Source of the DNA: Afipia sp. 64-13
GTDB taxonomy: Bacteria; Pseudomonadota; Alphaproteobacteria; Rhizobiales; Xanthobacteraceae
Length of the DNA: 64,000 nt
Direction: 5' to 3'
Assembly: GCA_001897755.1 (NCBI GenBank)
Contig: MKUJ01000007.1
Coordinates: 54,003 to 118,002 of the forward strand
Within the stretch, counting starts at the first letter, position 1; each line of letters starts with the position of its first letter. The translations under genes were made by a program, and so were the position numbers. Below are positions 5,866-48,361 of the stretch, in pieces. The notes under the pieces are model-generated. The model searched no databases. It was not told the DNA's origin and saw only the letters and a program-made list of their open reading frames with translations.

Positions 5866-6567
5866 ATGAACAAGGTTTTTCCCGACGCAAAATCGGCGCT
5901 TGAGGGCGTCATCAAGGATGGCATGACGATCATGTCAGGCGGCTTCGGCCTCTGCGGGATCGCGGAGACCCTGGCGAACGCCATCGGCGAGCTTGGCGTG
6001 AAGAATCTCACGGTGATCTCGAACAATGCCGCGGTCGATGGCATCGGTCTGGGACAACTGCTCGCCAACAAGCAGATCAAAAAGATGATCTCGTCCTATG
6101 TCGGCGAGAACAAGACCTTCGCGCAGATGTATCTCGCCGGCGAGCTCGAACTCGAATTCAATCCGCAGGGCACGCTGGCGGAGCGCATTCGCGCCGGTGG
6201 CGCGGGCATTCCGGCGTTCTTCACCAAGACTGGCGTCGGCACGGTGATCGCGGAAGGTAAGGAGATTCGCGAATTCGACGGTGAGAAATACGTTATGGAA
6301 CGCTCGCTGTTCGCCGATCTGTCGATCGTCCATGCCTGGAAGGGCGATACCGCCGGCAATCTCGTCTATCGCAAGACCGCGCGGAACTTCAACCCGATGA
6401 TGGCGACCGCCTCGCGCATGACCATCGCCGAGGTCGAGCATCTGGTGCCGGCGGGCGAGATCGATCCGGATCAGATCCATACCCCCGGTATTTTCGTCAA
6501 GCGCATCGTTCAGGCCGATCCGGCGCTGAAGCATATCGAGCAGCGCACCGTGCGCCAGCGCGCGTAA
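5866..6567 (+). CDS. scoA: 3-oxoacid (succinyl-CoA:3-ketoacid) CoA-transferase subunit A
   Basis: [36 protein letters not shown]...; typical subunit A; TTG at 5857 is an alternative start. Confidence 0.92.
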
Positions 6568-41008: not shown

Positions 41009-41039
41009 GACCCCGTCTGGCCCAGACGGGGTCTTTTTT
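41009..41039 (+). terminator. Rho-independent terminator
   Basis: GACCCCGTCTGGCCCAGACGGGGTC followed by TTTTTT. Confidence 0.88.
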
Positions 41040-43974: not shown

Positions 43975-45189
43975 CTATTCCGCCGCGATCTCGTCGGCGC
44001 GCCGCCAGCGCGGGAACGGATCGGGCAGTGCCGACCATGCTTTCGTGTCCATCGCGGGCCGTCCCTGCACCAGACAGGCGTCAAGCCGCGCGCGGATCGA
44101 GGCCTCATCCATGCCCGTGCCGATGAAGACGATCTCCTGCCGCCGGTCGCCGTAAATCGTGTTCCAGTGTTTCTTCAGCGACTGCCGCCAGAACGGATCG
44201 TTCGGCCAGCGCTCTTCGGGCACGCTCGCCCACCAGAAACCGAGTCCTTCGGTCTTGACGATCGATCCGGCCTGGCTGAGTTCGCCGAGCCATTGCGGGC
44301 GTGTCGCAAGCCAGAAGTGGCCCTTGGCGCGGATCACGCCGGACCAGTTTTCGCGCAGGAAGCGCTGGAATTTTGCCGGCTCGAACGGGCGCCGCGCGCG
44401 ATAGACGAAACTGGTGACGCCGTATTCCTCCGTTTCCGGCACGTGAGACGCAAAGCCGTACAGCTCCTTGGCCCAGAGCGGGTGTTCCTGCGCGCGCTCG
44501 AAATCGAAACGGCCGGTGTTGAGAATGCATTCGAGCGGGACGCGCGAATGGTTCGCCTCGACAATGACAGCATCGGGATTGAGTGCGCGGATGATCTTGC
44601 GGGCGGCATCGCGCTCGGTCGCGCCGGCGTCGTCGATCTTGTTGAGCACCACGACATCGGCGAATTCGATCTGGTCGACGAGCAGATCGACCAGCGTGCG
44701 CTTGTCGTCCTCGCCGAGCGATTCGCCACGCTCCTTCAGAAAGTCGGTGGACGAATAGTCCTTGAGCAGGTTCACGGCATCGACCACCGTCACCATGGTG
44801 TCGAGCTGCGCCACGTCGGACAGGCTTTCGCCGCTCTCGTCGCGGAAGTCGAAAGTCGCCGCAACCGGCAGCGGCTCGGAGATGCCGGTGGATTCGATCA
44901 GCAGATAATCGAAGCGATCATCTTGCGCCAATGCGCGGACTTCCTTGAGCAGATCGTCGCGCAGCGTGCAGCAGATGCAGCCGTTGGTCATCTCGACCAG
45001 CTTCTCGTCCGTCCGCGACAGGTTGGCGCCGCCATCACGGATCAGATCGGCATCGATGTTGATTTCGCTCATGTCGTTGACGATCACGGCCACCTTCAGG
45101 CCCTGACGGTTGTTCAGCACATGGTTCATCAGGGTGGTCTTCCCAGCACCGAGGAAGCCGGACAAGACTGTGACGGGGAGTTTTTGCAT
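43975..45189 (-). CDS. COG0523-family GTPase (CobW/ZigA/YeiR-like, putative zinc metallochaperone)
   Basis: [17 protein letters not shown] (Walker A), [13 protein letters not shown] (CxCC), [15 protein letters not shown]; Zur-like palindrome upstream. Confidence 0.9.
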
Positions 45190-45253
45190 CGAGATCAAAG
45201 AGCCTGTGAAGGGCGCGGAGCCCGGAACGATGGGACATCGATCCTCCATTTGT

Positions 45254-45267
45254 TATGTTATAACATA
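45254..45267. promoter_or_regulatory. Putative Zur box
   Basis: TATGTTATAACATA, 14-bp perfect palindrome upstream of the COG0523 gene. Confidence 0.75.
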
Positions 45268-45378: not shown

Positions 45379-47751
45379 TCAGTATTTGACGTTGGCGAAG
45401 AGCCGCACGCCGAGGCCGGGCAGCAGCACCTCGTCCTTGGTGTAGGAGACGTGGTTGCGGATGTCCTCGTTGAGCAGATTGTCGCCGACGATGCCGAGGC
45501 GGATTTCCTGCGGTCCCCAGTCGCTCTTGATCAGCTTCGCGGTGTAGCTCAGCTCCGCCTTCAGGCGGTTGTAGCCCGGCGTTGCCGTCTCGATGCCGCC
45601 GATGTCGTTTTGCGCGAAGGCATGCAGCAGGCTGACGCGCGCGAGCCAGTTGGCATCGCGATAAAACAACCCGCCGCCGAGACGCTGCGGCGGAATCCGC
45701 GGCACGTTGGTGCCGTCATCGAAGGTGGCGCGCACGATGTCGTATTGGCCTTCGACGCCGAACTGTCCGGCCCATATCGGCAGGACGTCGTACTGGAACT
45801 GAAACTCGGCGCCTCGGAAGTGCGCGTTGCGCTGCGCATAGATCGCCTGGTTGAGTTCGAGGCCGGGCCCCGCCTGGCACACGCCGTCTTCGCAGGTGTT
45901 GCCTGTCAGGTTGCGGTAGATGAAGCCGTTGAAATGGGTGTCGTATCCGGTGAGTTCGAACCGGAACGGCCCGGTCGCGCGGCGCAGCCCGATCTCGACC
46001 GATTTCGCGGTCTCGATCTTCAGGTTGGGATTGCCGATGTCGAACGTCACCGTGGCGTCGTGGCCGCCGCGCGAGAACAGTTCGGCCGGCTTCGGTGCGC
46101 GCTCGGTATATTGGCCGGTGATGCTGGCGACCAGATCCCACGGCAGGTTCTGGATCAGGCCGACGCTGCCGCTTTTCGGCGTGAAGTTCAGGTGGCGTGC
46201 CGTCGCCGGTCCGATCGCGTTCGGATCGGCGACAAGGTCGAACACGTCCGGAATGAACGCCGGCGTCGTGCCGGACAGATCGACATGCTCGATGCGGCCG
46301 GCGACCTGCGCCTTGGTGAGTTCGCTGAACCTGAACTCGTTGAACGCGTAGCCCGCGACTTTCGTATTTCGGTTCGGGTCCCATAGCCCGTTGAGCGGGC
46401 TGCCGAGGTCGTCGGGACTCGGCGCGGTCAATTCCTGATGCGAGGCCTGCACGCCGAGCGCGGTGGTCAGCGCGGCGAAGCGCAGGTCGAGCGGCATGAA
46501 TTGCACTTCGGCGCGGCCTTCCTGCTCCTTGTTGGTGAAGCGCTGGCGTATCCCGTCGGAGGTCGGATCGGCGGCATCGGCAAGACCGATCTCGCTGTGG
46601 CTGTAGTCGGTGGCACCGATCCAGAACCGGACCGCGTCGATCGCGGCGGAATCCGGCCGGTATTCGCCCTTGCTGGTGAACTTGGTCTGCCTGGCGTCGA
46701 TGCGGGTGCGGTGTTCTTCGCCGTCGATGCCGGGGATGTGATAGAGGCTGTTGTTCTGCGTTACCGCCGCGCCGATGAAGCCGCCGGTGAAGACATACGA
46801 GCCGCCGATCGAGAAGCCGTTCGACTCCGTCGCCGAGTTGGGCTGCTTGCCGTTGAACGGCCGCGTCGGATCGAACCGGTAGGGCGAGTTCGGCACGCTG
46901 TAGTCTTCGGTCTTGCGGGCGAACGCGTCGATGTGGATCGCGAAATTGCCGCCGCCGGCGTCGAGCAGCATCGCGCCCTCGCGGCCGCGATCGACGCTCG
47001 ACAGTGCGCCGCGCGTCTCGAAGCTCATGCAGGGATTCGAGGGGGAAAGCTGCGGCATCTTCACGGCGTAGCCATAGGTCTGCGCCGCGGAGATCGGGCT
47101 GCAGGGCAGGGCTTCCGGAATCCGGTTGTTGCTGGCCGCTACCACGCCGCCGATGGCGGTCGAGCCGTAACGCAGAGTCGCCGGGCCGCGGATGACTTCG
47201 ACCTGGTTGGTGGTGAGCGGATCGATCGGCACGAAATGATCCTCGCCGAGATCGGAGGCGCCGTTGCTGCCGAGCCCGTTCTCGGTGATGCCGACGCGGT
47301 TGACGTCGAGACCGCGGATGATCGGCCGGCTCGAGCCGCCGGGCGCGAAGGACGAGCCGGTGATGCCGGGCTTGTCGTTGAGCAGATCGCCCAGCGTCGT
47401 GGCCGAACTGCGGCGGATTTCCTCGTTCGGCACCACGGTCACCGTGGCGAACTGGTCGGTCACCACCGGCAGTGTGCCTGGAAGGAAGACCGGCTGCGCG
47501 ACAGGCACCGGTGTGGCCGGCGACGGCGCTGGCGTATGGCCGCCGCGCGCGACACGGGAAGGGTGTCGAACGGGCGTGGGGTGTGGCGGCTTGCGCCGGA
47601 CGATCGGGCTGGGCGCCTGTACGGTGAGCGCCGGCAGCACCGTGGAGCCGGACGCCTGCTCCTGCTGGGCGCGGGCAGCGCCGCCGGCACTGAGAACCAA
47701 TGCCGCCGTTGAGCCTGCGGCAAGCAGGGCGCGGAGGGATATCCTGAACAT
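45379..47751 (-). CDS. TonB-dependent receptor, ZnuD-like (putative zinc uptake)
   Basis: Signal peptide; plug TLGDLLNDKPGITGSSFAPGGSSRPIIRGLDVNRVGITENGLGSNGASDLGEDHFVPIDPLTTNQVEVIRGPATLRYGSTAIGG; C-terminal beta-barrel. Confidence 0.88.
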   Translation of the reverse strand: MFRISLRALLAAGSTAALVLSAGGAARAQQEQASGSTVLPALTVQAPSPIVRRKPPHPTPVRHPSRVARGGHTPAPSPATPVPVAQPVFLPGTLPVVTDQFATVTVVPNEEIRRSSATTLGDLLNDKPGITGSSFAPGGSSRPIIRGLDVNRVGITENGLGSNGASDLGEDHFVPIDPLTTNQVEVIRGPATLRYGSTAIGGVVAASNNRIPEALPCSPISAAQTYGYAVKMPQLSPSNPCMSFETRGALSSVDRGREGAMLLDAGGGNFAIHIDAFARKTEDYSVPNSPYRFDPTRPFNGKQPNSATESNGFSIGGSYVFTGGFIGAAVTQNNSLYHIPGIDGEEHRTRIDARQTKFTSKGEYRPDSAAIDAVRFWIGATDYSHSEIGLADAADPTSDGIRQRFTNKEQEGRAEVQFMPLDLRFAALTTALGVQASHQELTAPSPDDLGSPLNGLWDPNRNTKVAGYAFNEFRFSELTKAQVAGRIEHVDLSGTTPAFIPDVFDLVADPNAIGPATARHLNFTPKSGSVGLIQNLPWDLVASITGQYTERAPKPAELFSRGGHDATVTFDIGNPNLKIETAKSVEIGLRRATGPFRFELTGYDTHFNGFIYRNLTGNTCEDGVCQAGPGLELNQAIYAQRNAHFRGAEFQFQYDVLPIWAGQFGVEGQYDIVRATFDDGTNVPRIPPQRLGGGLFYRDANWLARVSLLHAFAQNDIGGIETATPGYNRLKAELSYTAKLIKSDWGPQEIRLGIVGDNLLNEDIRNHVSYTKDEVLLPGLGVRLFANVKY

Positions 47752-47878
47752 GTATTTCGATCCTGATGCCGCATCCGGCTGCTGCGTTCATGACCGGCAG
47801 CACGGGCGGCGTGACTGATGACAAGGGATCGGCGATCGGCCGCATGCGGCGATCGTCGCGGTCGAATGGCAGCAGGGA

Positions 47879-48232
47879 TCAGGAGCGGGGAGGGGCGCGG
47901 GAGCGGAAGGCGGCGTGGCGTGGTTGCGTGACGGCGGCGTCGAACGTCGCGGTCAGCCGCGTGGTATGGAAAGAGGCAGGAAGCGGCAGCAGCGGCGGGG
48001 TGGCATCGACCAGCGCGTTCGCCATCGCAACGGTGGCGCAGATCGCGCAGATGTCCTTGCCGGCGTCGTGGTTATGATCGCTGTCCGGGGCGGTGGTTGA
48101 AGAGCTCTGCGAGACGGCGGAGGCCGGCGCTGCATGGGCATGGACGTGGCCGAACGACAGGCCGAACTGCATGGCCAGCGCAAACAGCGCCAGCAGAGAC
48201 AGCTTCCGTGCCTGTGACCTGATCCAGTGCAT
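47879..48232 (-). CDS. DUF2946-type small exported His/Cys protein
   Basis: N-terminal hydrophobic segment, HVHAHAAP, DSDHNHDAGKDICAICATVAMANAL. Confidence 0.7.
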   Translation of the reverse strand: MHWIRSQARKLSLLALFALAMQFGLSFGHVHAHAAPASAVSQSSSTTAPDSDHNHDAGKDICAICATVAMANALVDATPPLLPLPASFHTTRLTATFDAAVTQPRHAAFRSRAPPRS

Positions 48233-48272: not shown

Positions 48273-48293
48273 AGATGTTATAATATAACATCT
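48273..48293. promoter_or_regulatory. Putative Zur box
   Basis: AGATGTTATAATATAACATCT, 21-bp perfect palindrome about 40 bp upstream of the DUF2946 gene. Confidence 0.82.
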
Positions 48294-48361
48294 AGGATAG
48301 CCGGTATGTCAACTAAGCTGGAAGGGAGGCCGCCCGCCGCTCCACCGCATCGTAGGTGGGG

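Follow-up and report, generated by a model that had tools for sequence, protein, structure and literature searches.

Introduction

Proteins of the DUF2946 family have been recognised as CruR/CutF-type upstream open reading frames (PMC9426467; PMC9973294). In Bordetella pertussis, the nascent CruR chain stalls the ribosome on its C-terminal RAPP motif, copper bound at a CXXC motif releases the stall, and Rho then terminates transcription before the gene of a TonB-dependent receptor, BfrG (CrtA) (PMC9426467). No other arrest motifs of this kind are as strong as RAPP and RGPP, and arrest by CruR has been observed in vitro (PMC12992588). CutF of Rhodobacter capsulatus is likewise an exported DUF2946 protein with a cysteine motif and a C-terminal proline motif; however, its cysteine motif is CxxxC, it serves copper-responsive activation, and it depends on a stem-loop that covers the ribosome-binding site of the following gene (PMC9973294). 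The DUF2946 proteins characterised to date are copper-responsive, zinc having shifted the B. pertussis bfrG mRNA only moderately, and the authors of the CruR work, for whom no riboswitch was known for either copper or zinc, proposed nascent-peptide sensors instead (PMC9426467). On the side of zinc, ZnuD of Neisseria meningitidis is a TonB-dependent receptor with a buried zinc site, printed as D90/H100/E340/H499 (PMC4557270). Further, Zur of Caulobacter crescentus represses the TonB-dependent receptors znuK/L/M, which lie behind GTTA-N5-TAAC boxes, and a Zur box also accompanies the Caulobacter DUF2946 gene CC2720, which heads a Zur-activated zinc efflux operon (PMC4176598).

The locus described here, within the 64,000-nucleotide stretch of Afipia sp. 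64-13 DNA that was analysed (the window), shares with CruR-BfrG the DUF2946 upstream ORF, the CXXC, the C-terminal RAPP, the long gap, the C>G bubble and the downstream TonB-dependent receptor. It differs in that CruR-BfrG mediates copper import, has no Zur box and controls a receptor of another family (PMC9426467), whereas the Afipia locus has a Zur box, a ZnuD-like receptor and a DUF2946 protein with GHxH and an Asp/His run, from a clade that has no extra cysteines near the CXXC. The reading favoured, to which a probability of about 70% may be attached, joins a Zur-repressed promoter to a CruR-like DUF2946 arrest leader with zinc as its most likely metal. This reading draws on the box and its conservation, the genomic Zur, the receptor ligands, the arrest motif, the spacing, the bubble and the clade differences, all read from sequence, and would entail Zur binding, ribosome arrest, Rho termination and zinc as the ligand.

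A Predicted Zur Operator Upstream of DUF2946

The 21-bp palindrome AGATGTTATAATATAACATCT at 48273..48293 (no strand assigned) has two perfect 10-bp arms, and its near end lies 40 bp from the ATG of the DUF2946 gene (48232, minus strand), in agreement with the earlier note, which had reported a perfect palindrome of this length about 40 bp before the DUF2946 start. Palindromy alone is weak evidence, as 0.28 odd palindromes with 10-bp arms of any sequence are expected per window and a GC-rich example of 21 bp, CCCCGTCTGGCCCAGACGGGG, does occur at 41011-41031, in the gap after an ORF ending near 40.7 kb; this second palindrome is not of the Zur type. Proteobacterial Zur boxes have a palindromic core of the TGTTATA-N-TATAACA type, and TGTTATANTATAACA was the motif used for box scans. 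At up to three mismatches, 0.03 matches to it are expected in the window and three were found, at two sites: 48273-48293 matches without mismatch, and 45251-45265 with a single mismatch and again, in an overlapping register, with three. The motif at 48273-48293 is far above chance. Phylogenetic footprinting located the box, at up to three mismatches, upstream of DUF2946 in 109 of 111 homologous regions, against 2 of 922 random control windows drawn from the same loci. In one of the two exceptions (L139) the box stands before zigA and heads a zigA-DUF2946-receptor row, and the other (L142) had been assessed on an additional DUF2946 copy further downstream, the first copy at that locus having the box. 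This second L142 copy, near 6380, lies directly 3' of the receptor gene, ends in RAPP and has no upstream Zur box.

A -35-like element, TTGACA (48307..48312, minus strand), is found 16 bp upstream of the box core, so that the -10 region would fall inside the box. A generic sigma-70 scan allowing spacers of 16-18 nt reported no promoter here, missing the TTGACA element because the spacer is longer than the scan permits, and the promoter was assessed instead by the conservation of TTGAC. In 109 of 111 relatives this shorter element lies no more than 35 bp upstream of the box, compared with its occurrence in 12 of 922 random 35-bp stretches. Its distance to the box across the relatives is 16-21 bp, and the spacing (16 or 19-20 bp) is not that of a textbook sigma-70 promoter. 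A second Zur box or promoter was also sought between DUF2946 and the receptor gene and none was found, the best box match in that gap having 5-8 mismatches in all relatives.

The genome encodes three Fur-family proteins, one of which, at C11:119289 (the L007 protein), is a clear Zur. Its best matches are the solved Zur proteins 7dh7 (E 2.8e-33) and 4mtd (E 3.7e-26), and its NCBIfam Zur score of 117.6 bits, under the cut-off of 167, is yet far ahead of all others. Across the whole genome, the motif occurs at up to two mismatches in four places, three of which precede zinc genes, namely DUF2946, zigA and znuCBA-cobW (L004/L008). The fourth match, C19:152731 near an MFS-type gene, was discarded as probably due to chance, since a reversed control pattern also gives two genome matches. 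The box at zigA, TGTTATGTTATAACA (45251..45265, no strand assigned), is a second predicted Zur box, matching the motif with one mismatch and recurring before zigA in relatives. The zigA gene itself (43975..45249, minus strand) encodes a COG0523/CobW-type zinc GTPase that exceeds the curated cut-off (NCBIfam NF038288, 631 bits against 600), with no notable difference from known ZigA/COG0523 GTPases. The NF038288 alignment begins at residue 24, and the true start is likely Met21 (45189), which would leave the box about 60 bp upstream. Regulation of zigA by Zur is known from other bacteria. No zigA downstream of the receptor was tallied among the relatives, because in Bradyrhizobium the gene sits upstream on the other strand; ten Bradyrhizobium loci have it there with a box of its own. 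The footprinting, the clear genomic Zur and the boxes before zigA and znuCBA all support the proposal of the earlier note that the palindrome is a Zur operator, predicted to be of the repressor type, and we infer that Zur binds it.

The ZnuD-Like Receptor

The gene downstream of DUF2946 (45379..47751, minus strand) encodes a TonB-dependent receptor of 790 amino acids with Pfam plug and barrel domains, whose closest solved structure is ZnuD (4rdr, E 1.5e-40), 32 orders of magnitude ahead of the next match (1.6e-8). The aspartate of the ZnuD buried site that is printed as D90 is here taken as D99, as the aspartate adjoining H100 is D99 by chain numbering. With this numbering, receptor residues D171/H172/E387/H564 align with the ZnuD ligands D99/H100/E340/H499, and all four are invariant in 80 of 80 homologues, which were located by tblastn mapping. 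The His/Asp-rich clusters of extracellular loop 3 of ZnuD were also sought in the receptor, and only a poorly conserved EEH at 345-347 was found. In addition, ZnuD NF038289 is the top NCBIfam match but at 228.7 bits falls far under the curated cut-off of 950. The receptor is called ZnuD-like, not ZnuD, because it scores below this cut-off and has no His-rich loop clusters; it differs from ZnuD further in being preceded by DUF2946. The match to 4rdr and the four conserved ligands nevertheless support its assignment as a ZnuD-like outer-membrane receptor predicted to take up zinc, as had been suggested from the sequence of the plug. The reading of the whole as a zinc-uptake operon likewise gains from the conservation of the box, the presence of Zur in the genome, the receptor ligands and the zigA box; the zinc part of that reading stands, while the box before zigA and the probable regulatory role of DUF2946, described below, had been missed.

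DUF2946 as a Candidate Arrest-Peptide Leader

The DUF2946 gene (47879..48232, minus strand) encodes 117 amino acids (Pfam PF11162, 28.7 bits, cut-off 23.7) and is a candidate metal-responsive arrest-peptide upstream ORF. Its N terminus resembles an export signal, and the sequence is rich in His, Asp and Cys. The CXXC (C62-A-I-C65, codons 48038..48049, minus strand) is proposed as a metal site together with H29xH31 and an Asp/His run at D50-D56, and the RAPP motif (R112-P115, codons 47888..47899, minus strand), placed two residues before the stop, as the ribosome arrest motif. All 112 DUF2946 relatives have the CXXC, and their C-terminal motif is RAPP in 98 and RGPP in 14. The spacer between CXXC and R[AG]PP is 46 residues in 111 of the 112, the present protein having 46 as well, and 45 in the remaining one, compared with 45 in B. 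pertussis CruR (PMC9426467). Only a few residues are invariant in an alignment of 20 sequences, and these include H29, H31, C62, C65, R112, P114 and P115.

The 3' end of the ORF (47879..47965, minus strand) carries a C>G bubble that is a candidate Rho loading region. For 78-nt windows whose starts lie 84-24 nt from the ORF end, mean C-G is 0.15-0.20, the peak of the scanned region, with up to 99% of 78 loci above 0.1. The bubble is strongest across the final 84 nt, where the mean is 0.20 and 96-99% of the 78 loci exceed 0.1, a measure of composition only. It may arise in part from the amino acid sequence, as a GC-rich gene encodes Arg, Pro, Ser and Ala with C-rich codons. The Rho site of CruR occupies the corresponding position. 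Downstream of the ORF, a gap of 127 bp (47752..47878, minus strand) with neither a Zur box nor an unusual RNA fold separates DUF2946 from the receptor gene, and in the relatives the receptor follows DUF2946 on the same strand with tblastn gaps of 94-209 bp. DUF2946 is the first gene of the operon, the exception being L139 with zigA ahead of it. A stem-loop of the CutF type was sought in the 127-bp gap, and the fold was no better than that of shuffled sequences (z-score -0.41), which fits CruR rather than CutF. From these features, DUF2946 is most likely a regulatory upstream ORF of the CruR type and not an uptake component, and the receptor operon is probably under a second, post-transcriptional control besides Zur.

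Proposed Zinc and Copper Types of DUF2946

A copper-type DUF2946 paralogue is present in the same genome at G000:C17:121555-121896 (L162, L193), before another TonB-dependent receptor and with no Zur box, and provides a natural control for the choice of metal. The two types were compared within the alphaproteobacteria, with 18-19 copper-type sequences. All 18 copper-type paralogues have a Cys at least 20 residues before the CXXC, and 12 of the 18 have one immediately in front of it, whereas none of 112 members of the Zur-box clade has a Cys in the 25 residues before the CXXC and five have one further upstream. As the semiconserved upstream Cys of the copper type is absent, the present DUF2946 was classed as a variant and not as a copper CruR. 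A GHxH motif following the signal helix, by contrast, is found in 107 of 112 members of the Zur-box clade and in 0 of 19 of the copper type. An Asp/His run also precedes the CXXC in the Zur-box clade, although its exact positions vary.

The tree places the Zur-box proteins in a single group (support 96/90), which also takes in two proteins of other alphaproteobacterial families. In these two (L191 and L192), a GHxH-type DUF2946 heads a row of porin-like, AztC/ZnuA-like and AztB/ZnuB-like genes, the AztC/ZnuA-like binding protein of L191 having been assigned from translation alone. A Zur box with a single mismatch is present in one of the two rows, and none was found upstream of DUF2946 in L192. 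Because these members head rows of zinc ABC-transporter genes, the link of this DUF2946 type with zinc holds without the receptor. It is most likely that the DUF2946 of this clade senses zinc, GHxH and the Asp/His run together with the CXXC having taken the place of the extra cysteines. However, GHxH and the Asp/His run may have another role, since CruR senses via its CXXC alone.

Discussion

The present data suggest a model in which zinc would be read twice, in the nascent chain by the DUF2946 leader and in the cytoplasm by Zur. When zinc is sufficient, Zur bound over the -10 region would keep the DUF2946-receptor operon off, and under zinc limitation Zur would leave, allowing transcription of this operon and of the neighbouring zigA. 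The ribosome would stall on the C-terminal RAPP of metal-free nascent DUF2946, and by shielding the C-rich Rho site it may permit RNA polymerase to continue into the receptor gene. Metal binding at the nascent CXXC site would then release the stall, whereupon Rho would end transcription before the receptor. The leader peptide could in this way act as a fast second brake on the return of zinc, ahead of the re-closing of the promoter by Zur. The evolutionary extension of the model, that this DUF2946 clade has switched from copper to zinc sensing and forms, as a zinc-responsive arrest peptide, a second layer in Zur-regulated zinc-uptake operons of alphaproteobacteria, is put forward at even odds.

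Other explanations of the locus have been considered. The palindrome could have arisen by chance or could form an RNA hairpin, with no protein-binding site; such palindromes are frequent enough, at 0.28 per window, for this to be entertained, but the specific motif recurs before DUF2946 in relatives at a rate that random windows do not approach. The box also lies upstream of the start and behind a conserved TTGAC in those relatives, and the same motif precedes zigA and znuCBA. An origin by chance or as a hairpin is thus highly improbable and was rejected on the conservation of the motif relative to random windows. A second possibility accepts the Zur operator and makes DUF2946 a small exported, zinc-binding protein that passes zinc from the receptor to ZnuA and has no part in regulation. 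The signal-like N terminus and the His/Asp/Cys-rich sequence would suit such a carrier, and CutF was itself first proposed as a chaperone, as cited in PMC9426467. However, a chaperone would need neither a C-terminal R[AG]PP, set two residues ahead of the stop codon, nor its fixed distance of 46 residues from the CXXC, and these are the most constrained features of the protein; the leading place of DUF2946 in the operon and the long gap that follows it also speak against such a role. A non-regulatory zinc carrier therefore seems quite unlikely.

The main rival to zinc as the ligand is copper. Here the Zur operator and the CruR-type arrest peptide would both hold, but the peptide would sense copper, and excess copper would switch the receptor off post-transcriptionally, thereby blocking copper entry through the zinc receptor. 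Every RAPP-type DUF2946 that has been studied experimentally responds to copper, and CXXC motifs commonly serve as Cu(I) sites (PMC9426467; PMC9973294). Even so, the clade does not have the extra Cys present in all 18 copper-type paralogues tested, it keeps GHxH and heads zinc ABC operons in other families, and a second DUF2946, of the copper type, is encoded in this genome in front of a different receptor gene. Sensing of copper by the present protein is accordingly considered unlikely, though less so than the chaperone role, and the joint model of Zur repression and a zinc-responsive leader is preferred.

A Zur box ahead of an outer-membrane receptor gene is a well-known kind of system, and Caulobacter CC2720 (PMC4176598) is the nearest precedent for a DUF2946 gene under a Zur box. 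CC2720 heads a Zur-activated efflux operon, whereas the present gene heads an uptake operon behind a box predicted to be of the repressor type. The papers searched contain no description of a CruR-type leader that is controlled by Zur and bears a zinc-type metal site; a search for Zur or zinc together with CruR or arrest peptides, subscription journals and preprints lying outside it, found no zinc version. Nascent-peptide metal sensors shown so far comprise copper examples only, and if the clade does sense zinc, it would provide the first zinc-responsive arrest peptide. The model, if true, would explain the "protein of unknown function" encoded before zinc receptors in Bradyrhizobium, Afipia, Rhodopseudomonas, Nitrobacter and Tardiphaga. 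In addition, the zinc and copper paralogues of one genome would form a ready pair with which to ask how a nascent chain picks its metal.

Additional Box-Associated Genes

Boxes listed for the genus that lie neither at DUF2946 nor in the znuC leader were checked at six loci; five precede zigA and the sixth a gene resembling DUF1007. The latter is a Zur-type box with one mismatch at L209:1961-1975 (G011), the resemblance of the gene start to DUF1007 having been assigned from translation alone, and the gene behind it is a possible further Zur target. Between the Zur box and znuC, a 61-aa His-rich membrane ORF beginning MASLHSHAHSHDHGHHHHG was observed (L004:1565-1750; in the Afipia sp. 64-13 genome itself, G000:C20:43968-44150). 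This ORF is found before znuC in most species of the genus and may encode a second small zinc-related leader or a membrane peptide.
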